Assembly: GCA_905612515.1 (NCBI GenBank)
Contig: CAJQSI010000062.1
Coordinates: forward strand, 1-53,182
Direction of reading: 5' to 3'
Length of the DNA: 53,182 nt
From: an uncultured Opitutales bacterium
GTDB lineage: Bacteria > Verrucomicrobiota > Verrucomicrobiia > Opitutales > Seribacteraceae
Shown: positions 44,083-53,182 of the stretch, in pieces
How the letters are laid out: each line of letters begins with the position of its first letter
Position numbering within the stretch: the first letter of the stretch is position 1
The notes under the pieces: generated by a model
What the model saw: only the letters and a program-made list of their open reading frames with translations
Databases searched by the model: none
What the model was told of the DNA's origin: nothing
Translations under genes and position numbers: made by a program

Positions 44083-45564
44083 CTACGAAGGACGGAGCGT
44101 GGGAAAAAGAATGGTATCTCGAATGTTGGCCGCCTTCGTGAGAAAGATCACTAGGCGATCGATGCCTAGCCCCATACCGCCGGCAGGTGGCATCCCGTGC
44201 TCAAGCGCCATGAGAAAATCTTCGTCCATTTCTTGGGTTTCCTCTCCCACTTGGCGTTGGAAAGCTTCTCGTTGAACGAAGGGGTCATTCTGTTCGGAAT
44301 AGGCGGGGGCAATCTCCTGCCCATTGATACAGAGTTCGAACACGTCGATGGTGGAAGGATCGTCTTGAGTGATTTTGGCTAGAGGACATAGCTCACGAGG
44401 AATGTGAGTGACGAAAGTAGGTTGCACGAGGGTGTGCTCAATAACTTTCTCGAAGACGTCGTTGGTCACCTCAAAATCTTCCAATCCGGGATCCACTTCA
44501 ATACCGAGTTCCTTGGTCTTTTCCAGTTTCGCAGCAGTGGGTAGATCAAACCAGTCGTCGCGACCGACGGTCTCGATGATGAGATCCTTGTACTTGGCTT
44601 CACGCCATTCTCCGGACAGATCGATTACGTCGCCTTCCGGACGCTCGATCGTAAGCGTGCCAATCGCTTGTTCGGCCACATGCTGAACAAGGGATCGAGT
44701 GAGTTCCATCATGCCGCGAAAATCGGTGTAGGCCTGGTAAGCCTCCAACATGGTGAACTCGGGGTTGTGCCTTCGGGAAAGTCCCTCGTTACGAAACACT
44801 CTCCCGATTTCAAAGACCCGATCAAAGCCGCCGACGAGAAGGCGCTTCAAGTGCAACTCGAGGGCAATACGCAGATTGAAATCACAGGAAAGAGCATTGA
44901 AGTGAGTTTGAAAAGGCCGAGCGGCGGCCCCACCGGATACGGCTTGCAGCATGGGCGTCTCGACTTCGAGGAATTCGCGCTCCCAAAGGAATTCGCGCAT
45001 GTGCCGAATGATGCTGCTGCGCGCCTTGAAACGTTCTCGAGAATCTTCGTTGACCACGAGATCCAGATAGCGTTGACGGTAGATTTGCTCGTTGTCAGTG
45101 AGGCCATGCCACTTCTCGGGAAGAGGACGAAGAGATTTTGAAACCAAGGTATACTCTTCAGCCCTAACGGTAATTTCACCCGTCTTGGTACGGAACAACT
45201 TTCCGCGTACACCAATGAAGTCGCCCAAATCCAGTTTCTTGAACTCGGCGTAGGACTCGTCCCCTATCTCGTCTCGCCTCACATAGGCTTGGATACGACC
45301 ATCCCTATCCAGTAATTTCAGGAAAGTGGCTTTCCCCATCAAGCGAAAGATCACAATCCGGCCAACGACCGACACCTCCGGCCCCTCCTCCTCTTCTTCA
45401 GGCAAAAGAGCTTTTGCCTGCTCCGAAGTGTGGGATTGATGGCAATTGGCGGAAAAGGGATCGGCACCCGACTCACGCAAAGAGTCCAGCTTGGCCTTCC
45501 GTACGGCAAAGAGATCACTCGTTTCGATATCGGTTGAATCGTTCGGTTCTTGGGTTTCGCTCAT
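44083..45564 (-). CDS. lysS: Lysyl-tRNA synthetase, class II (493 aa)
   Basis: Charges tRNA-Lys. The start is taken at ATG 45564 (MSETQEP); an upstream TTG would add four residues. The N-terminal OB-fold anticodon domain includes VVGRIVIFRLMGKATFLKLLDRDG. Class II motif 1 lies around REFLEVETPMLQ, motif 2 is FEIGRVFRNEG followed by RHNPEFTMLEAY, and motif 3 is PPAGGMGLGIDRLVI. ELCINGQEIAPAYSEQNDP is specific to LysRS. Length is normal. Confidence 0.97.
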   Translation of the reverse strand: MSETQEPNDSTDIETSDLFAVRKAKLDSLRESGADPFSANCHQSHTSEQAKALLPEEEEEGPEVSVVGRIVIFRLMGKATFLKLLDRDGRIQAYVRRDEIGDESYAEFKKLDLGDFIGVRGKLFRTKTGEITVRAEEYTLVSKSLRPLPEKWHGLTDNEQIYRQRYLDLVVNEDSRERFKARSSIIRHMREFLWEREFLEVETPMLQAVSGGAAARPFQTHFNALSCDFNLRIALELHLKRLLVGGFDRVFEIGRVFRNEGLSRRHNPEFTMLEAYQAYTDFRGMMELTRSLVQHVAEQAIGTLTIERPEGDVIDLSGEWREAKYKDLIIETVGRDDWFDLPTAAKLEKTKELGIEVDPGLEDFEVTNDVFEKVIEHTLVQPTFVTHIPRELCPLAKITQDDPSTIDVFELCINGQEIAPAYSEQNDPFVQREAFQRQVGEETQEMDEDFLMALEHGMPPAGGMGLGIDRLVIFLTKAANIRDTILFPTLRPS

Positions 45565-45644
45565 TAGAAAAAACAAATAAGGCTACCTTTAGCGGGGGCT
45601 GAGGCAATGGAAATCCCGATGACTTCGAAAAATCAAATAGCCTT
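45565..45644 (-). terminator. Possible terminator after the TIR-FGE gene, next to lysS
   Basis: On the minus strand AAGGCTA (45644-45638) is matched by TAGCCTT (45585-45579) with a 52-base loop, followed by ATTTGTTTTTTC. The T-run is good but the loop is long, so termination is uncertain. If real it separates the TIR locus from lysS. The run touches the lysS start codon, so lysS would then need a promoter inside this short gap; none is clear. Confidence 0.3.
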
Positions 45645-45648
45645 CAAC

Positions 45649-47136
45649 TTAGGATACTTTGGCCAAGACTACACGAAATCCAAGATTGCGAAAACGGTGG
45701 TAGAGGGAATTCGTAGAACGCGACGAGGATTTACACTCCGTAGCGCTTTTCATGTATCCACCGCCACGACTTATTCGAAACTCGTCCTGTTCGGAATCCC
45801 CAAGCAATGTGTTAACGAAAGAATTGCCAACCCACTCTCGAATGTTGCCGTAGAGGTCATACAATCCCCATGGATTCGCTTGCTTCAAGCCAACCGGGTG
45901 AATGTGCTTTTTGCTGTTTTCCTTGAACCAAGCGTGTCTCAACAACTCGGCAGGGTCATCACCGAAATAATAGTCAGTGGCAGATCCTGCTCGGCAAGCG
46001 TATTCCCACTCTACCTCCGAGGGCAGTCGATACTCGTAACCCTTGGGCAAATGATCATGACGTTTGCCAAGATTGGTCATTGCCTTGCAAAAAGACACGG
46101 CATCGAGCCAGGAAACGTTGTTTACGGGCAAATTTTCGCGAAAAAAGCCTTCTCCGTCATCAATGTGACTTGGATTCAGTCCCATGACGCTGCCATAGAC
46201 TTCTTGGGTTATGAGATGCTGCCCCATCCAAAACCCCTCTTGCATTTCAACCAAACGAGCCTCGTTTGCATAGGGAACCCAAACGGTTAGAGAACCTGAG
46301 GGTATCCAAGAGTAATCGGAACCTAAAATGTCTTGATGCGCATCCGGCTCACTTGGCTCGCTTTCGGATCTGGCTTCAACCTTAGCCTCCAAAGCGACGG
46401 GGATGCGTGTATTGGAAGGCTTTCGAGACTTTCTCGCAATCGCAAAGTCACTGGGAGGTCTCACCGGCAAATTCAGCTTAACTCGGGAAGAATCTTTCTC
46501 CTTGGGAGCAACTGGAACGACTTCCTCTTTGGGAGAAACAGGGATAACTTGCTCTTTATTTGTCTCAAGTCGGCGAAGAACTCTCCGCCTCTGCGCCTCG
46601 CCGGCAGCATCCCATATCGGCCACAAATCGGCTTCGAAAATATCGACTGAGGTAATGGGCTTAGACGAAATCCCACTGACTGTTTGTCGCTCCTCAGTTT
46701 CCCCCAAGATATCAAGGACAGCGCACTTGGCCTTTTTTCGCCAATCGTTGTCGGAAGTCTGGATAGACTGAAAGGGCTGTAGACAAAGATCAAGACCTGC
46801 CGGGAGATCAGTCTCTTTTAGATAAATAGAAAGGATATCCTTATCGAGACTAAGAGCGTATCCCACCTCGCTTCTCACATATCGAGATTCAACCGCATCA
46901 GGAGAAATAAAAACGACGAATAGCTTGGAGCCCTTTATCGCGGAGGCGATTTCCTCAACCCATTCACCGGCTGGGGAAATGCCCTCGTCATACCACATAT
47001 CCACACCTTGCTTGCGCAGCCAGTCCATGCATTCGTATACGAAGGCTTTATCGGCGTGGGCATAACTTACAAAAGAGTAAGAGCCTTCCCCTGAATAAGC
47101 CTCGAAAGGAACTGGAGTGGTATTGTTCGCAATCAT
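45649..47136 (-). CDS. TIR domain fused to an FGE-sulfatase (C-type-lectin-like) domain (495 aa)
   Basis: The start is taken at ATG 47136 (MIANNTTPVPF), 16 bases after the upstream stop; a longer frame overlaps that gene. Residues about 19-130 are a TIR domain: SFVSYAHADKAFVYECMDWL, WYDEGISPAGEW, VVFISPDAVESRYVRSE, with Glu90 at the position used by TIR NAD hydrolases. A charged linker with repeated PKEEVVPV-like units covers about 190-285. Residues about 290-493 are an FGE-sulfatase domain: FWMGQHLITQEVYGSVMG, LPVNNVSWLDAVSFC, YRLPSEVEWEYACRAG, GLYDLYGNIREWVGN, RISRGGGYMKSATEC, LGFRVV. Compared with the human enzyme, the first catalytic Cys is Lys and the second is kept, so oxidase activity is unlikely. 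It is probably an effector: TIR output with an FGE-fold binding module. Confidence 0.88.
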   Translation of the reverse strand: MIANNTTPVPFEAYSGEGSYSFVSYAHADKAFVYECMDWLRKQGVDMWYDEGISPAGEWVEEIASAIKGSKLFVVFISPDAVESRYVRSEVGYALSLDKDILSIYLKETDLPAGLDLCLQPFQSIQTSDNDWRKKAKCAVLDILGETEERQTVSGISSKPITSVDIFEADLWPIWDAAGEAQRRRVLRRLETNKEQVIPVSPKEEVVPVAPKEKDSSRVKLNLPVRPPSDFAIARKSRKPSNTRIPVALEAKVEARSESEPSEPDAHQDILGSDYSWIPSGSLTVWVPYANEARLVEMQEGFWMGQHLITQEVYGSVMGLNPSHIDDGEGFFRENLPVNNVSWLDAVSFCKAMTNLGKRHDHLPKGYEYRLPSEVEWEYACRAGSATDYYFGDDPAELLRHAWFKENSKKHIHPVGLKQANPWGLYDLYGNIREWVGNSFVNTLLGDSEQDEFRISRGGGYMKSATECKSSSRSTNSLYHRFRNLGFRVVLAKVS

Positions 47137-47152
47137 GATGGAAGAGAACAGG

Positions 47153-49111
47153 TCAGTAATCAATGTACCCGGAACGCTGCAAGAGGTAAATAGGGAAACT
47201 ACCAAATCCTTTGGCAAGCTCGATGTTTCCTACGTACTCGAAGTCAAAGTCATCATGACCAAAGGAAAGTAGACCGGCGACCGTTTCCGAAACGTAAACA
47301 CATCCCGGCAAGGCAATCGGCTCGATTCGAGCTGCCTTGTTAACGTGAGAGCCAAAAAAATTCGTCTGGCGCAGGAGAGGATCATGAGCCGCGTAAGCGG
47401 GACCAGCATGCAACGCGATGCGTATGTCGAAATCAAAAGGTAGGCCTTTCTCGCTCCAATCGGTCTGAGAAACAAAATCTCGCAAGTCCAAGGCTAAGGC
47501 CAGACCGTCTTCAACCTCATCGAAAACGCAAAAAATGGCATCCCCCCAAGTATTGATGAAAGCAGGGCGTCGAGATTGCTTGTCCAAAAGTGAGGCAAGA
47601 CCTCCTAGGAATTGCTCAACGTATACGGGGGAATCGGAGTCAGGGAGTTTGCTAAAGCCTTGTACGTCGGCGAAAAGCATAGTCTTAACTAGACGTACAG
47701 GCCCTGTTTCCGCGGTGCGGGATGCTGCCACGAGAAAGGCAGGTTTCGTTTCACCCGATTTGCGAACAGGTGTGGACTCTATCTCGGCTGAAGCAAGCAT
47801 TTGGGCCGAGTCGATTATTACGGGAAGACCGAAACGCTTGCTCCAGCGGGTAACCAACTGGCCGGTGCCACCGGTACTTCCTCCCTCGCCATCCCAGAGC
47901 ACCAGTAGTTTCGGATCCTCGTCCAAGGTATGGGCCCTCATTGCGGCAAACCCCACGAGAACGTCGTTACAAAGCTCAAAGAGAGTATCATCGCCGAGGT
48001 ATTCTTCCTCGGTTACGTAATGGACGTATTCCGCTTTATCCAAGGCGCGTTCAAAACGTTGCACCCAGTTCCCCCCCGCCCGACGGACACTTGTCTCAAT
48101 AAAATCCTTCTTATTGAAGGGTAGAAACACATGCACCTCACCTCCGCGAGCAAGCATGGCCTCGATGAACAGAATATCCGTACCGCAGGCAGCGGAGCTA
48201 AAGCCGTAGGAACAATCGAGTTTATCCAAAGCCGCCTCGATTTCTGCCTTTGCCAATGCCTCGACTTCCGGAGGGAACCGAACGGACCCACCCGTGTTAT
48301 CGATAACATGACCGGAGCAAGCGAGTATTCCCGTCTGCGGGAAAACCCCTGAAATTTTTTCCAAGACCATGGGGTCTTCATAGGCGGAGGCAATCTGGAT
48401 TGCCTGCGTTCGGGTGGTCGCAATTTTGGCAGGTTCGGCATCAGGCATGGCCACCGCTTCCGCATAGGCTTCCAATGATGCATCGAGCTCTCCTTCGATT
48501 AGGTATGCCTCACCGGTCGTTGCCTGTGACCAATAATCTCCAAGTGAGTTTAGCTTCAGGTTCCGGCAGATTGCCAAAGCGCGCGTCGAATAAGAACGGG
48601 CCTCTTCCGCATCTCCGGACAACAGGTACATGAAAGCTACGTTGATGCAGGGGTAATACTCAGTTCCGACATCCTTTACGCGGCTTTGCTTAAAGGCATC
48701 AAAACTAGTGGTGGAAAACCCTTCCTTGTATCGAGCAATGGCAAGATCTGCGTATCGTTGCTTGCTTTCGGGATCAGAAGCATATTGCCACAAATCCTTG
48801 TAAGCGCTTGCAAGAAGACTATGTGCCTCGACGTCACGATCTCCCACGGCCAGCAATTCTTCGAGAATATGGGTAGCTTTGAGAGGAGACCCGGCGTTAA
48901 TCAATGCCGAGGCTGCTTTTTGGCTGAGTGTTCTATCTTCCGGAAATCTCTTAAGTCCAACCTTCGCCACGTCGTAAGCCAGAAGAGAATCGCCAACGTC
49001 AATCATACGCTGGCACAATTTTCGAAATTCTAAAGAACTCGAATTATCGCGATCAAAGAATTCCCACTCTTTTCTTATATTCGGAGTAAATCTGGGGCTT
49101 AGCTGAGACAC
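47153..49111 (-). CDS. TRAFs-binding-like/TPR protein with C-terminal class III nucleotidyl cyclase (652 aa)
   Basis: The N-terminal 230 residues resemble the TRAFs-binding (DUF4071) helical domain: RMIDVGDSLLAYDVAKVGLKRFP, ASAYKDLWQYA, and EYYPCINVAFMYLLSGDAEEA. The middle (about 255-430) is a Rossmann-like segment with CSGHVID, GFSSAACGTDILFIEAMLA and EVHVFLPFNK, similar in style to SLOG-type domains. The end (about 475-645) is a class III cyclase: metal Asp482 (MLFADVQGF) and Asp524 (NTWGDAIF), Asn591 and Arg595 (HVNKAARIE), and a Lys in ELAKGFG. The two base-selecting positions are Asn520 and Asn584, not Lys/Asp or Glu/Cys. The start is GTG 49111. It precedes the TIR-FGE gene by 16 bases and should be co-transcribed. 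Confidence 0.85.
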   Translation of the reverse strand: MSQLSPRFTPNIRKEWEFFDRDNSSSLEFRKLCQRMIDVGDSLLAYDVAKVGLKRFPEDRTLSQKAASALINAGSPLKATHILEELLAVGDRDVEAHSLLASAYKDLWQYASDPESKQRYADLAIARYKEGFSTTSFDAFKQSRVKDVGTEYYPCINVAFMYLLSGDAEEARSYSTRALAICRNLKLNSLGDYWSQATTGEAYLIEGELDASLEAYAEAVAMPDAEPAKIATTRTQAIQIASAYEDPMVLEKISGVFPQTGILACSGHVIDNTGGSVRFPPEVEALAKAEIEAALDKLDCSYGFSSAACGTDILFIEAMLARGGEVHVFLPFNKKDFIETSVRRAGGNWVQRFERALDKAEYVHYVTEEEYLGDDTLFELCNDVLVGFAAMRAHTLDEDPKLLVLWDGEGGSTGGTGQLVTRWSKRFGLPVIIDSAQMLASAEIESTPVRKSGETKPAFLVAASRTAETGPVRLVKTMLFADVQGFSKLPDSDSPVYVEQFLGGLASLLDKQSRRPAFINTWGDAIFCVFDEVEDGLALALDLRDFVSQTDWSEKGLPFDFDIRIALHAGPAYAAHDPLLRQTNFFGSHVNKAARIEPIALPGCVYVSETVAGLLSFGHDDFDFEYVGNIELAKGFGSFPIYLLQRSGYIDY

Positions 49112-49160
49112 AGGCGTTTAAAACACCTAATTCCTAAGAACGCCACGCAGTTGTGCGAGG

Positions 49161-49200
49161 CAAAAAAACAAAGAGAAATGAGAAACAGTTAAAGTTTCTC
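49161..49200 (-). terminator. Intrinsic terminator of rpsU
   Basis: On the minus strand GAGAAAC, a 7-base loop TTTAACT, and GTTTCTC form a perfect stem (49200-49180) that overlaps the rpsU stop codon. It is followed by ATTTCTCTTTGTTTTTTT, a strong T-tract. This is the clearest terminator in the window and isolates rpsU from the cyclase/TIR locus downstream. Confidence 0.85.
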
Positions 49201-49389
49201 GTATCGCGTCCGAAGCATTTGGCTGAAAGCAGCTACTTCTCTGGCACGACGCTTCTTGTCCGAGGGCTTCTCGAAATACCGCTTGGCCCGGGCATCACGA
49301 ATGATACCTTCGCGATCCAGACGCTTCTTGAGACGCCGAATGGCGCGGTCCATGGTTTCACCCTTACGAATCTTTATTTCAACCGACAT
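49189..49389 (-). CDS. rpsU: 30S ribosomal protein bS21 (66 aa)
   Basis: Small basic ribosomal protein of the 30S platform near the anti-Shine-Dalgarno end of 16S rRNA. The sequence [20 protein letters not shown], the [13 protein letters not shown] block and the basic KKRRAREV match bS21 throughout, at normal length. It has its own promoter and terminator, so it is a single-gene unit. No Shine-Dalgarno motif precedes its ATG (upstream ACATAAGCAAT). Confidence 0.97.
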
Positions 49390-49418
49390 ATTGCTTATGT
49401 AATGTGAGAAAGATGATC

Positions 49419-49447
49419 AAAGTAGACTTGACTGGAAAAACGGTCAA
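49419..49447 (-). promoter_or_regulatory. Promoter of rpsU with overlapping dyad
   Basis: On the minus strand TTGACC (49447-49442), exactly 17 bases, then TACTTT (49424-49419). Transcription should start near 49412, giving a leader of about 23 bases. A perfect 7-bp inverted repeat, ACTTGAC and GTCAAGT (49449-49426), covers the -35 and most of the spacer and could be an operator. The rest of the gap to dnaE (49450-49552) shows only weak stems. Confidence 0.6.
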
Positions 49448-49552
49448 GTGCGAAGAAGCTACATTTCGATCCTACTGAAAACGGAGAAATAGCCTACCTC
49501 GCTTGCCATTTCAGCGGCTCGTGTCCGCTCCATTTCCGGGAGGAGACAACCA

Positions 49553-52500
49553 TCAACTGCTCTTAGATCGCTTCGCCCAAGCAGGTTCCTCCGGCGGAGG
49601 AGGCGGATCCAAGACGACCTTTGCCCCAAGCACACCCGAGCGCGCCCGTAAACTCTTGAACCCTTCGGGAGAGAAGCTCACCGCAAACCGGGGATCCGTT
49701 TCCGCGACAAGAGCGTCCTTTCCATTCGCAGCGGCGAAAGCGAAGTGCATTCTGGTATTTCCTCGACCTTCTCCGGATACGGCATGTACTTCCTCCATAA
49801 AGGCATTCGCATCCTCGCTATCGTGTTCTATCAACCAAGTCACCTCCTTGGTAATCTTCGCCAAAGACCTTTCGGCAGGCAGGATCGAAACGACGTTTAC
49901 GCGAGTTTCTCCGTTTCTTTCCGACGCCACACCTTCCACGATTACGATTTCGCCCTCCACCAAGTTTACTCCGTACTGCTCGTAGGCCTCGGAAAAAACC
50001 ATAAGGGGAAAATCCTTCTCCTTTGCAGCGAGGTTAAAGCGCGCCCATGGGCGACCATTCTTCTTCGTAAAACGTTTTTCCACCTCGGCGATAACTCCGC
50101 AAAGCCGGAAGGGGCGCTTGCCCTCCACAGTTTCGAGATCCTTCGCAGTCAAATCGGAAGCAAGCTCCCCAAGTCCGCCGAGCGTATCAACGGGATGTCC
50201 TGAAAGGTAAAAACCCAACAACTCTTTTTCATAGGAAAGTTTCTCCAGTTCGTCCAAGTCCTTCCCCTGAGTCGCGACGTCGCCAGTGGAACCGTTATCG
50301 GAAGTCGGCGATGAAACCGGCCCCGCATTCATCATGTCCGCGCCCATCATATCGAAAAGGGTCTCCTGCCCCGCATCATGATCCTTCCGACGCAACTGGG
50401 CCTCCCCCATGATGCGATCAAGATCCACAAGCAAGGCCGACCGATTCTCTCCCAAGGAATCGAACGAACCCGTCTTGGCCAAGCATTCGAACACCCTTTT
50501 GTTCACCGCCTTCGGATCCACTCGCTCGGCAAAGTCGCTAAAGCTCTCAAAGGGTCCGTTCGCCTCGCGCTCGGCAATGACTAACCTGGATGCCACGTCG
50601 CCCACGCCCTTGACCGCAGCCAGACCGAAACGGATGCTCCCCTTGTCGCCCTTTTTTCCGTGAACGGGGGTAAAGCTGCCCCCCGATTCGTTCACGTCCG
50701 GGCCCAGCACCGATATACCCATTTCCGAGCACTCCCCTATGAAGTGGGAAAGCTTTTCCGCATTTCCCAGTTCGCAGGAAAGCACCCCCGCCATAAAGTC
50801 GACGGGGTGGTTCGCCTTCAGGTAGGCCGTCTGGTAACTGATTATCCCGTAAGCCGCGGAGTGCGACTTGTTGAAACCGTAGCCCGCGAATTTCTCCAGA
50901 ATGTCGAATATCTCGTCCGCCTTCTTCTTGTCGATGTCATTGGTTTCCTTGGCCCCCTTGACAAAAATCTCTCGCTGCTTGGCCATCTCCTCGGGCTTCT
51001 TCTTACCCATGGCCCGCCTCAGGATATCAGCCCCGCCGAGGGTATAACCCGCCACGCGTTTGGCCGCTTCCATTACTTGCTCCTGATACACCATCACGCC
51101 GTAAGTTTCCTGGCAGATATCCTCCAGCAACGGATGGGGGAAGCGAATGGTGGAGGAATCCTCCTTGCCCTTGATGTAGTCGGGAATCCATTCCATCGGT
51201 CCCGGCCGGTAAAGGGCGATGAGAGCGATGATCTCGTCGATGTTCATGATGTTCATCTGCCTGCACAGACGTCGCATGCCGTCCGACTCCAGTTGAAACA
51301 CACCTATCGTCTGGGCCTCGTTGAGCAGGGCGAAGGTGGGTTCGTCCTCCAAGGTCACGTTGCTCACGCTGAATGTATTGTCGCCCGTGGTTCGTCTCAC
51401 ATGTGCCTCCGCCTCGGCGATCACGGTCAAGGTCTTCAGCCCCAAAAAGTCCATTTTCAATAGGCCCAAGTCCTCCACCGGATCCTTGGGGAACTGCGTG
51501 GTGAGGATACCGTCCTGCAAGGTAAGCGGCACCAGTTCCCGCAGCGGTCGGTCCGCGATTATCACTCCCGCCGCATGGGTACCGACGTTTCGCACCATGC
51601 CCTCGATCACCTTGCCCGTGTCGACGATTTGCCTGCAGATCGGATTTTTCTCGTACTCCGCCTTGAACTCTGGGTTCTTCTCGATCGCGTCGGCCAACGA
51701 TATGTTCAAGTCGTCGGGCACCATCTTGGCCATACGGTCCGCCTCCGCGAAGGGAACGTCTCGCACTCGGGCCACGTCCCGCATCACCATCTTGGCCCCG
51801 AAGGTACCAAAGGTTATGATGTTGGCCACGCACTCCCGCCCGTACTTTTCCCGAACGTACTCGATCACCTCGCCACGCCTGCGCATACAGAAGTCGATAT
51901 CGAAATCGGGTGGCGACACTCGTTCGGGGTTGAGGAACCGCTCGAAAAGCAAGCCGAACCGCAAAGGATCGATATCCGTGATGCCCAACAAGTAGGCCAC
52001 CAGGCATCCGGCTCCGGAACCCCGCCCGGGTCCCACCGGAATGTCCTGTTCGCGAGACCACTTTATAAAGTCCGCCACGATCAGGAAATAGTCGTTGAAA
52101 CCCGACGAGTCGATGATGCTCAGCTCGTAATCCACCCGCTCGCTCAGTTCCAACACCTTGGCATCGGTATCCTCGTTCCGCTCTCCCTCCTTCAGATAAG
52201 AAAGCTCGTAGCGCTCCACCATGCCCTTGTCGCAGAGGCTCTTCAGGTAGGTCGGGCGATCCGCAAACTCCTTCGAAATCTCCACCGGCATCGGGTACAC
52301 CGGATAATGGTTCTCGCCGAAGGGCAGCTTCACGTCGCACATCTCGGCCACGCCGAACACGTTGGTCACCGCCTCGGGCACCTCGCGAAAGATCATTTCC
52401 ATCTCCTCCCGCGACTTAAGGTAGAACTCCTTGCCGTCGTATCGCATCCGTTTGGGGTCATCCAACTTGGAACCCGTCTGGATGCAGAGCAAGGCATCGT

Positions 52501-53167
52501 GCGGGTCCCAGTCCTCGCCGCGTACGTAGTGCACGTCGTTGGAGCCCACCACCTTGAGGTCGAACTCCTTGGCCAGCTTCAGGAGATCGGGAATAATCTT
52601 AACCTGCAAGGGAATCCCGTGGTTCTGCAGTTCTACGAAATAATTCTCCTTGCCGAAAATATCCACGAACTCGCCCATCGCGACGCGGGCCGCCTCGTAA
52701 TCATCCTGCAACAAAAGTTGGGGCACCCTACCCTTCAGGCAACCCGTAAAACCGATCAAACCCTTGCCGTGCTCCGCCAGCTTCTCCATATCCGTTCTCG
52801 GATGATAGTAGAAACCATTCACGTGGGCATCCGAGACAAGCAGCGACAAGTTTTTGTACCCCTCGTAATCCTTGGCCAACATTCCCAAGTGATAATAGGT
52901 GTGCTTGTCGCGCCCGGGGCGCTCCACGTTCTTGTGGTCGGCCACCAGGTACGCCTCGCAACCGATCAAGGGCTTTATACCGTGCTTTTCCGCCTGCTTT
53001 AGGAACGATATGGTGCCGAACAAGTTCCCGTGGTCCGTAAGCGCCATCGACGTATGTCCCATCTCCTGCGCGCGCTGCATGAGACGATCCATCCTGCAGC
53101 ACCCGTCCAGCAAGCTGAAATCGGAGTGCACGTGCAAGTGAACGAAATCCGTATCCTTCTTAGCCAT
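49553..53167 (-). CDS. dnaE: DNA polymerase III alpha subunit DnaE (1204 aa)
   Basis: Replicative polymerase catalytic subunit. The N-terminal PHP domain starts FVHLHVHSDFSLLDG and has ALTDHGNLFG. The polymerase core has VGPGRGSGAGCLVAYLLGI, the catalytic Asp pair in PPDFDIDFCMRRR and the third Asp in LLKMDFLGLKTL, then GYGFNKSHSAAYG. A helix-hairpin-helix region and an OB domain (RPFRLCGVIAEVEKRFTKKNGR) follow. The C-terminus is proline-rich (DPPPPPEEPAWAKR) with no obvious tau-binding signature. The start is taken at ATG 53167 (MAKKDTDF); a TTG at 53179 would add four residues. The gene is complete or nearly so at the right window edge. Confidence 0.96.
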   Translation of the reverse strand: MAKKDTDFVHLHVHSDFSLLDGCCRMDRLMQRAQEMGHTSMALTDHGNLFGTISFLKQAEKHGIKPLIGCEAYLVADHKNVERPGRDKHTYYHLGMLAKDYEGYKNLSLLVSDAHVNGFYYHPRTDMEKLAEHGKGLIGFTGCLKGRVPQLLLQDDYEAARVAMGEFVDIFGKENYFVELQNHGIPLQVKIIPDLLKLAKEFDLKVVGSNDVHYVRGEDWDPHDALLCIQTGSKLDDPKRMRYDGKEFYLKSREEMEMIFREVPEAVTNVFGVAEMCDVKLPFGENHYPVYPMPVEISKEFADRPTYLKSLCDKGMVERYELSYLKEGERNEDTDAKVLELSERVDYELSIIDSSGFNDYFLIVADFIKWSREQDIPVGPGRGSGAGCLVAYLLGITDIDPLRFGLLFERFLNPERVSPPDFDIDFCMRRRGEVIEYVREKYGRECVANIITFGTFGAKMVMRDVARVRDVPFAEADRMAKMVPDDLNISLADAIEKNPEFKAEYEKNPICRQIVDTGKVIEGMVRNVGTHAAGVIIADRPLRELVPLTLQDGILTTQFPKDPVEDLGLLKMDFLGLKTLTVIAEAEAHVRRTTGDNTFSVSNVTLEDEPTFALLNEAQTIGVFQLESDGMRRLCRQMNIMNIDEIIALIALYRPGPMEWIPDYIKGKEDSSTIRFPHPLLEDICQETYGVMVYQEQVMEAAKRVAGYTLGGADILRRAMGKKKPEEMAKQREIFVKGAKETNDIDKKKADEIFDILEKFAGYGFNKSHSAAYGIISYQTAYLKANHPVDFMAGVLSCELGNAEKLSHFIGECSEMGISVLGPDVNESGGSFTPVHGKKGDKGSIRFGLAAVKGVGDVASRLVIAEREANGPFESFSDFAERVDPKAVNKRVFECLAKTGSFDSLGENRSALLVDLDRIMGEAQLRRKDHDAGQETLFDMMGADMMNAGPVSSPTSDNGSTGDVATQGKDLDELEKLSYEKELLGFYLSGHPVDTLGGLGELASDLTAKDLETVEGKRPFRLCGVIAEVEKRFTKKNGRPWARFNLAAKEKDFPLMVFSEAYEQYGVNLVEGEIVIVEGVASERNGETRVNVVSILPAERSLAKITKEVTWLIEHDSEDANAFMEEVHAVSGEGRGNTRMHFAFAAANGKDALVAETDPRFAVSFSPEGFKSLRARSGVLGAKVVLDPPPPPEEPAWAKRSKSS

Positions 53168-53182
53168 TGCCCCTAGCAATCA

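Follow-up and report, generated by a model that had tools for sequence, protein, structure and literature searches.

A core TIR-FGE/cyclase gene pair of Seribacteraceae that may link a NAD-derived to a cyclic-nucleotide signal

The genes for a nucleotidyl cyclase and a TIR-FGE protein found between rpsU and lysS in the window (the whole stretch of 53,182 nucleotides analysed here, contig CAJQSI010000062.1 of an uncultured Opitutales bacterium) form a core, vertically inherited chromosomal locus in the family of this bacterium, Seribacteraceae. Our best reading, tentative and slightly short of an even chance, is that they constitute a domesticated immune-type signalling pair passed on by vertical descent, which may relay a NAD-derived signal into a cyclic-nucleotide one.

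The genes of the locus lie on one strand in the order dnaE-rpsU-cyclase-TIR-FGE-lysS (Table 1). An initial annotation of this DNA had proposed a two-gene locus, with a TPR-S-class III cyclase gene followed after 16 bases by a TIR-FGE gene, flanked by the housekeeping genes lysS, rpsU and dnaE. Both ORFs, their Pfam domains and the positions of the flanking genes are as it described, including the 16 bases between the cyclase stop and the TIR-FGE start. The other same-strand gaps are 77 bp (rpsU/cyclase) and 84 bp (TIR-FGE/lysS). Given these short gaps, the pair need not form a separate transcription unit. The same annotation had closed the pair off with a strong rpsU terminator on one side and a possible terminator on the other. 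The former corresponds to an existing T-tailed hairpin, but its strength is not established: the interval 45300-49600 has five terminator-like sites, a count not above chance given the 5.4 expected from shuffles. The latter was not recovered, as our hairpin/T-tail scan of that interval lists no terminator-like hairpin between TIR-FGE and lysS.

Table 1. Positions of the genes, domains and residues of the locus in the window
Feature	Position	Strand	Remarks
dnaE	49553-53179	-	Beyond rpsU
rpsU	49189..49389	-	Upstream neighbour, constant in the window's family
7-pair hairpin with T-rich tail, end of rpsU	49180..49200	-	Possible terminator; kept in two relatives
Cyclase gene	47153..49111	-	652 aa, GTG start; TPR-S + SLOG + class III nucleotidyl cyclase
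TPR-S (Tetratricopeptide Repeats-Sensor), residues 52-161	48629..48958	-	PF20308, E 1.9e-13; model helices continue to about residue 256
SLOG (YpsA/DprA/LOG-type Rossmannoid), residues ~260-435	47807..48334	-	Predicted model and structure comparison; invariant D312, E317
Class III cyclase domain, residues 477-644	47180..47683	-	PF00211 (Guanylate_cyc), E 5.6e-16
Metal Asp482	47666-47668	-	In 38/38 aligned family cyclases, window included
Metal Asp524	47540-47542	-	In 37/38 aligned family cyclases, window included; the remaining one ends before this position
TIR-FGE gene	45649..47136	-	495 aa counted from ATG; ORF and Pfam
TIR domain, residues 22-132	46741..47073	-	TIR_2, E 6.9e-21; ThsB_TIR, 5.4e-8
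TIR Glu90	46867-46869	-	In 35/35 TIR-FGE proteins, window included
Variable TIR/FGE linker, residues ~151-270	46327..46686	-	Insertions; dN/dS 0.20-0.52
FGE/C-type-lectin-like fold domain, residues 289-490	45667..46272	-	PF03781 (FGE-sulfatase), E 1.4e-32
lysS	44083..45564 from its ATG	-	Downstream neighbour, constant in the window's family

The cyclase gene is present in 40 of the 42 genomes of the family. The initial annotation had held that its proposal would fall if the two genes were not neighbours in related genomes; they clearly are, since of the 38 family genomes with a readable arrangement, window included, 36 have TIR-FGE directly after the cyclase gene. The gene order is fixed across the family, the locus lying between rpsU and lysS. 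Regarding the two genomes with no cyclase gene, in one (G290) the contig breaks off within TIR-FGE, and the other (G321) has no locus; as the family loci were fetched via the cyclase, a TIR-FGE gene without it could hardly be seen. Distances of the pair follow those of dnaE (Mantel r 0.89), in a comparison of the window with 19 other genomes in which all four genes are near full length. Both proteins evolve clearly faster, with mean p-distances of 0.37 and 0.43 versus 0.16 and 0.23 for lysS/dnaE. Their dN/dS values are low, and those of the cyclase and FGE domains are near the lysS value, indicating strong purifying selection. On the strength of the occurrence in 40 of 42 genomes, the fixed rpsU-lysS position, the correlation with dnaE and the lack of cyclase matches in plasmid or phage records at the limits given below, we rejected a mobile or defence-island setting for this family. 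Among 26 rpsU loci from outside the family (52 genomes searched), none has lysS or the cyclase gene within about 1.5 kb of rpsU, which is not informative as an empty-site test in sister families. The start of dnaE lies near rpsU in five of these 26 loci.

TIR-FGE alone is missing from two of the 38 resolved genomes, G322 and G326. An internal-deletion scar of the gene is visible in G322, which suggests that the loss is recent there. In both genomes the cyclase gene is still open with the inspected residues kept, and other TIR matches are found elsewhere in the genome. Thus, the link between the cyclase and this TIR is not a strict one.

The cyclase protein was modelled at full length with a pLDDT of 86.9. 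As a fold search with the whole model was filled by cyclase-domain matches, residues ~260-435 were folded separately, yielding a predicted model with a pLDDT of 91.2. It matches YpsA (2nx2; Foldseek E 1.9e-7; VIA-align Z 18.2, rmsd 3.3, 164 aligned), and TRPM2 channel chains are also among its structural matches (Z 8.3-10.1). ThsA is absent from the structure matches listed, which excludes nothing. At an E threshold of 0.01, Pfam matches nothing in this region across 66 aligned members, and a sequence profile of the region gave no convincing solved relative (best E 0.7). According to the predicted model, residues ~260-435 are a SLOG fold, a domain overlooked in the initial annotation.

The cyclase domain resembles the catalytic domains of guanylate and adenylate cyclases in structure comparisons (Z 19-22). 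The residues singled out initially, Asp482, Asp524 and TIR Glu90, are all present in the family alignments (Table 1), and the conservation analysis also noted N591/R595 in the cyclase domain. The stretch N520-T-W-G-D524 presumably stands where the usual Lys would be. Both metal Asps are also retained in a broad alignment of 62 members, composed of 61 of the 72 complete relatives plus the window protein. Therefore, cyclase catalysis seems to be under selection. This alignment omits class-level relatives, including L045 and L046, in which both metal Asps are missing.

In the TIR-FGE protein, Pfam detects no families other than TIR and FGE up to E 1. The initial statement that it has no CRP-type nucleotide-binding domain is thus right as far as Pfam shows. 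TvpA (2y3c) is the best solved relative of the FGE domain by sequence (E 1.2e-22). With a dN/dS of 0.03-0.13, this domain ranks with the best-conserved parts of the pair, and it is nearly invariant across five genus members. Such conservation points to a ligand that stays the same and not to a phage trigger that diversifies; we retain the earlier idea of the FGE fold as a sensing module with that change. Diversification of the FGE end by a DGR was considered and rejected on the same values, together with the lack of a hypervariable C-terminal stretch. Cys468 is found in all 35 TIR-FGE proteins and Lys463 in 34 of them; judged by the active-site motif of FGE enzymes, Lys463 appears to occupy the position of their first active-site Cys.

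More distantly, TPR-S/MAP3K TRAFs-binding proteins with cyclase ends are recorded from many phyla, with identities of about 25-40%. They are patchily distributed, occurring in 27 of 286 genomes of the class, counting the window's own. We collected 106 loci, namely 26 (including L006) and the best 80 of 396, from which 9 with no recognised target in crude gene calls, 4 from the window's genus and 6 near-duplicates were removed, leaving 87. Beyond the family, TIR genes neighbour the cyclase gene more frequently than chance would give. In crude gene calls, a TIR gene is adjacent to it in 16 of the 87 loci and none is adjacent in the other 71. TIR genes represent 17 of 169 adjacent genes versus 5 of the 499 genes at least four positions away (p 2.9e-7), with a TIR profile partly seeded with adjacent TIRs. 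A check by Pfam positions, among the matches listed, used rounded genome sizes and covered 25 of the 26 genomes, the exception being G234, where the cyclase domain has no match. It placed a TIR within 2 kb of the cyclase in 8 of 25 genomes against 0.22 expected, in four lineages, this limit being chosen after the positions had been seen, and within 1 kb in 5 of 25 against 0.15 expected, in two lineages, with a lineage-level p of only 0.01.

The C-terminal parts of these TIR partners or near neighbours vary and include WD40, TPR, Sel1 and DUF4062. The DUF4062 matches are below the Pfam cut-off in L077 and L113 and above it in L095, and the Sel1 example (L053) lies at two genes' distance from the cyclase instead of next to it. 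The TIR parts of L049 and L064 were found with a purpose-built profile and are absent among the Pfam matches listed; the TIR part of L049 was also among the matches used for the Pfam-position check. An RyR domain (PF02026), which is absent from the window protein, is fused to the cyclase relative in 22 of the 87 independent loci. Some distant loci are found beside genes of the kind that characterises conflict systems (TIR, NACHT or nSTAND), and others beside metabolic genes. In a Pfam scan of 10 of the 77 close same-strand neighbours there, unrelated-looking ones were CobW, malate synthase, a solute-binding protein, phospholipase B, and ceramidase/cytochrome-type and beta-helix proteins, with two more having little or no Pfam match. 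Of all the loci read, none outside the window's family had TIR-FGE as the partner or the fixed place between rpsU and lysS. No cyclase relatives were found in phage records (E 1e-10) or plasmid records (E 1e-20). For TIR-FGE, 25 plasmid records contain a match, and no match extends over 80% of the protein. Viral contigs gave no confirmed relative of TIR-FGE or of the 62-member cyclase alignment, which, with few patterns, is weak evidence.

In the relay that we favour, the FGE-fold end of TIR-FGE would bind a conserved ligand, possibly a self-damage, envelope or infection signal, upon which the TIR domain would cut NAD to give an ADP-ribose-type nucleotide. By analogy with ThsA in Thoeris, the SLOG domain of the cyclase protein might read that nucleotide and switch the cyclase on. 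The cyclic nucleotide would then act on receptors elsewhere in the cell, and this two-stage relay could end in dormancy, ion flux or cell death. A candidate receptor is an MscS-type channel with a cyclic-nucleotide-binding domain, encoded in the window's own genome. We infer the direction of the relay, as well as any phage defence by the pair.

Several observations support this reading. The cyclase protein has a predicted SLOG fold with invariant polar residues, and the SLOG domain of ThsA reads TIR-made 3'cADPR (PMC11204291). Of the 28 RyR matches in relatives, 15 keep, at exact spacing, the four cADPR-contact positions of RyDEP (PMC13232231); phage members of the RyR fold bind 2'/3'cADPR. 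Further support comes from the TIR genes adjacent to the cyclase in distant loci, with their varied C-terminal parts, and from the core status of the pair, its purifying selection and the cyclic-nucleotide-binding proteins found in 42 of 42 family genomes. The reading is weakened by the lack of RyR in the window protein, the majority of distant loci with no adjacent TIR gene, and the open cyclase genes of G322 and G326. It also has to be reconciled with the fact that core, slowly evolving genes are unusual for phage defence. The broader proposal of a new signalling architecture, in which SLOG (joined by RyR in relatives) is the receptor of a two-stage relay served by swappable TIR sensors across several phyla and made a permanent core pair in the window's family, is possible, with the balance leaning against it.

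The pair had initially been viewed as related to Pycsar, with the cyclase acting on the TIR protein. The conserved two-gene unit was borne out and is related, but it is not Pycsar; with the SLOG domain in place, the reverse order, TIR signal first and cyclase second, is at least as likely. A Pycsar-like order, in which the cyclase protein would sense through TPR-S/SLOG and make a cyclic nucleotide that sets off killing or arrest of the cell by a TIR-FGE NADase, appears unlikely to us. The cyclase and TIR genes do share one unit with the cyclase first, the metal Asps and the TIR Glu are invariant in the family, and the loss of the TIR gene alone in two genomes fits the shedding of a costly effector. 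Nevertheless, TIR-FGE has no cyclic-nucleotide-binding domain by Pfam, unlike PycTIR (PMC11224242). Searched with the PADLOC PycC model, the window protein gives no hit up to E 1, and only 14 of the 62 aligned members give one (best 2.1e-6). If deprived of its effector, a cyclase would be expected to decay; in G322 and G326 it is still open, although the scar in G322 suggests a recent loss.

A non-immune role in ordinary housekeeping or envelope-stress signalling, with the FGE domain as an enzyme or a binder of an envelope component, would agree with a core, syntenic locus whose distances follow dnaE, with cyclase and FGE dN/dS values near that of lysS, and with the lack of cyclase relatives in the plasmid and phage searches above. 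We hold it to be improbable, since both proteins diverge faster than lysS/dnaE, some loci outside the family lie beside TIR, NACHT or nSTAND genes (though others are beside metabolic genes), an immune gene may also be core, and Lys463 apparently replaces the FGE active-site Cys. More improbable still is control by protein-protein contact, with the TPR-S protein restraining or assembling TIR-FGE in a toxin/antidote-like manner and the cyclase as a regulatory nucleotide-binding module: the tight linkage, the loss of TIR-FGE but never of the cyclase alone (which the search via the cyclase could hardly reveal) and the relatives devoid of both metal Asps fit it, but the metal Asps kept in the family and the 62 aligned members argue for selected catalysis, and the neighbour elsewhere is usually not a TIR gene.

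If true, the NAD-to-cyclic-nucleotide relay would unite NAD-derived and cyclic-mononucleotide signals, the two nucleotide alarms of bacteria that have been studied best, within a single pathway, and the SLOG and RyR folds would gain a new kind of output. In its core, slowly evolving form, the pair looks as if a lineage had permanently adopted an immune-type TIR system, and the locus makes the role of such systems, when they are not optional, directly testable. Our literature search, covering titles and abstract openings, found no description of the pair or of a TIR/SLOG-cyclase relay; earlier prediction of its parts is quite possible. The likeliest places for TPR-S to have been discussed together with SLOG, RyR and cyclases are papers by Burroughs, Aravind and colleagues (NAR 2015 and J Bacteriol 2020).

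Among known systems, the pair is reminiscent of Thoeris (ThsB TIR + ThsA SIR2-SLOG) in that a TIR protein is found beside a protein with a SLOG domain, the latter identified here by predicted model and structure comparison. TIR-FGE scores 33.6 bits against the Pfam ThsB_TIR family (cut-off 21.2). It matches the ThsB models of PADLOC at 5.2e-7 at best and a SAVED-TIR model better (5.4e-10), and is far below the cut-off of NCBIfam ThcB4. The window SLOG is, however, joined to a cyclase with no SIR2 or macro match by Pfam, its TIR has an FGE end, and the locus is core in its family. The pair is not standard Thoeris. With Pycsar (PycC + PycTIR/PycTM) it shares a class III cyclase and a TIR protein in one unit. 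It differs by the TPR-S and SLOG domains of its cyclase, by residues F480, N520 and W522, which, when placed by their distance from the metal Asps, agree with none of the PycC sets taken from PMC11224242, and by the lack of a cyclic-nucleotide-binding domain on its TIR protein, because of which we do not assign it to Pycsar. Its cyclase has the architecture of the TPR-S/MAP3K TRAFs-binding cyclase proteins, some of which carry the RyR domain that the window protein does not have. Lastly, as in TvpA and the DGR-diversified proteins, which are FGE-fold conflict proteins (PMC10907252, PMC7159879), an FGE/C-type-lectin fold forms the C-terminal end of a conflict-type protein, here with no hypervariable region, in contrast with DGR variable proteins.

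The minus strand of the window carries, in this order, dnaE, rpsU, a cyclase gene, a TIR-FGE gene and lysS, with gaps of 77 bp between rpsU and the cyclase gene, 16 bp between the latter and the TIR-FGE ATG, and 84 bp between the end of TIR-FGE and the lysS ATG. The pair of genes and the catalytic residues proposed for it in the initial annotation stand, and the interpretation given there finds partial support. In the family alignments, window included, the cyclase residues D482 and D524 are present in 38/38 and 37/38 proteins (the remaining sequence is cut before D524), and TIR E90 is invariant in 35/35 TIR-FGE proteins. The strong rpsU terminator also proposed is less secure: a hairpin at the end of rpsU is kept in two relatives, yet it was not above chance in our scan. 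Structure comparison aligned the cyclase domain with guanylate and adenylate cyclases (Z 19–22). Asn520, within an NTWGD motif, is found in 37/38 family members (the other one is cut) and occupies what we take to be the site of the usual substrate-selecting Lys in such cyclases. F480, N520 and W522 fit no PycC residue set given in the available portion of PMC11224242.

Genes of the cyclase/TIR-FGE pair in the window
Gene	Position	Strand	Product (domains by Pfam)
cyclase gene	47153-49111	minus	652 aa; TPR-S + class III cyclase
TIR-FGE gene	45649-47136	minus	495 aa; TIR + FGE-sulfatase domain

An additional domain, overlooked in the initial annotation, lies between TPR-S and cyclase (residues ~260–435) and is confidently predicted to fold as SLOG (model pLDDT 91.2). 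YpsA is its best structural match (Foldseek E 1.9e-7; Z 18.2, rmsd 3.3, 164 aligned), followed by DprA (Z 12.9), ShosA (11.8), LOG enzymes (about 10) and TRPM2 channel chains (8.3–10.1). This region gave no Pfam family match in any of 66 aligned members and no convincing solved relative by sequence search. G267, H268, R278, D312 and E317 are invariant across 38 family members; in the alignment of 61 cyclase relatives with the window protein, G267, D312 and E317 are invariant in all 62 members, and H268 and R278 reach at least 90%.

The FGE end of TIR-FGE has TvpA, a DGR protein, as its best solved relative. It is nearly identical across five genus members, which rules out DGR diversification within the genus. 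The window's own genome encodes a second TIR-FGE fusion with an N-terminal GYF_2 domain (L257:5878-7518; contig C63, 56877-58517), with no cyclase-family gene within the 15 kb read around it, and a ~1200-aa protein, its frame still open where the contig stops, that carries two consecutive FGE-fold domains (L258:7333-10941, contig C97).

Among 42 genomes from 4 genera of the family, the cyclase is present in 40. Its absence from the other two is explained by assembly: the lysS-bearing contig of G290 (3,694 bases) stops inside TIR-FGE, and G321 is 60% complete and has no lysS match either. In 40 loci from 39 other genomes, rpsU lies 61–121 bp ahead of the cyclase match in 36, and the remaining four have no rpsU match within the stretch examined. 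The search for the same gene pair suggested in the initial annotation found TIR-FGE next after the cyclase in 36/40 genomes (35 others plus the window; that of G317 is partial, at a contig end); it is missing in two, and contig ends make another two unreadable. In the two genomes without TIR-FGE, G322 and G326, the cyclase is directly followed by lysS and retains all 13 inspected residues. G322 keeps the last TIR-FGE residues and, by eye, the first ones, the middle being deleted; no recognisable remnant is found between cyclase and lysS in G326. At 26 rpsU loci from other families of the order, neither cyclase nor lysS occurs within about 1.5 kb. In one locus (L056, genome G297), the cyclase gene looks as if recently exchanged, since its dS to the window's copy is 0.09, far below those of TIR-FGE (0.71) and lysS (0.47, partial gene).

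Protein distances correlate with those of dnaE for the cyclase (Mantel r 0.89), TIR-FGE (0.80) and lysS (0.76), with 0/999 permutations as high, and the cyclase and TIR-FGE are both evolving more quickly than either lysS or dnaE. Within the genus, dN/dS is 0.06–0.11 for the cyclase gene, 0.03–0.13 for the FGE end, 0.06–0.14 for the TIR, 0.20–0.52 for the linker and 0.03–0.09 for lysS. Defence genes are seldom inherited so stably by vertical descent, or held under purifying selection, and the pair may therefore have a non-immune role, which we keep as an alternative.

Beyond the family, the cyclase protein was found at E 1e-20 in 27/286 genomes of the class sample, own genome counted; a wider genome scan, of which the best 80 of 396 loci were kept, reached many phyla judging by record titles. 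In the 87 independent distant loci, drawn in part from these best 80 of 396, a TIR gene adjoins the cyclase relative in 16, and TIRs represent 17/169 adjacent genes vs 5/499 genes at least four away (p 2.9e-7). The TIR profile behind this count was partly seeded with neighbouring TIRs, and the test was therefore redone using Pfam positions. A TIR lies ≤2 kb from the cyclase in 8/25 genomes (0.22 expected; 4 lineages, lineage-level p 8.5e-5), a limit chosen after the positions were seen, and within 1 kb in 5/25 (0.15 expected; 2 lineages, p 0.01). These adjacent or near TIR proteins bear TPR, WD40, Sel1, DUF4062 or BioY-type parts; a few distant loci have an NACHT-TPR, nSTAND1-WD40 or nSTAND1-WD40-FGE partner instead, and in others the cyclase relative sits beside metabolic genes. 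Runs of many TIR genes occur in G155 (C11, 75.7-96 kb), G117 (C1, 1192-1204 kb) and G236 (C20, 87-118 kb), the first two adjoining a cyclase gene. Two relatives (L045 and L046, from G164 and G236) are probably inactive cyclases, as both metal Asp residues are replaced in the alignment.

Of the 87 distant loci (in part from the best 80 of 396), 22 encode a cyclase relative with a fused RyR domain. The cADPR-contacting H..W, H and D of RyDEP, as described in the accessible part of PMC13232231, are kept with unchanged spacing in 15/28 RyR matches, and H..W in 26/28. Two relatives (L044:7209-9833 and L048:6914-9592) have two RyR matches each, behind the cyclase rather than in front of TPR-S, and one RyR-TPR-S-SLOG-cyclase gene adjoins a fusion of TIR with a BioY-type membrane domain (L078:8842-10041).

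We favour an order in which TIR-FGE would act upstream, as sensor and NAD-consuming enzyme, and the SLOG-cyclase downstream, as receiver of its signal and source of a second messenger; ligand and outcome are equally conjectural. This preference comes from the SLOG domain of ThsA reading TIR-made cADPR (PMC11204291, in the part available), from RyR domains of phage proteins binding TIR-made cADPR molecules (PMC13232231, likewise), and from the module being found with TIR genes. The cyclic nucleotide would then reach cyclic-nucleotide-binding receptors in the cell; proteins of this type occur in 42/42 family genomes. An MscS-type channel with such a domain, encoded in the window's own genome (L268:3-1571, contig C32), is a possible receptor. 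The reverse, Pycsar-like order from cyclase to TIR, suggested in the initial annotation, is no longer favoured, and we consider it rather unlikely.

The new elements are the SLOG domain, the recurrent TIR and RyR link of the cyclase family, and the finding that the pair is core to one bacterial family; parts of this may well have been described before. The pair is not filed as Pycsar because it has no cyclic-nucleotide-binding domain, as the initial annotation had recognised, nor as Thoeris because it has no described Thoeris effector. It differs from both in composition, and may nevertheless work like one or the other.
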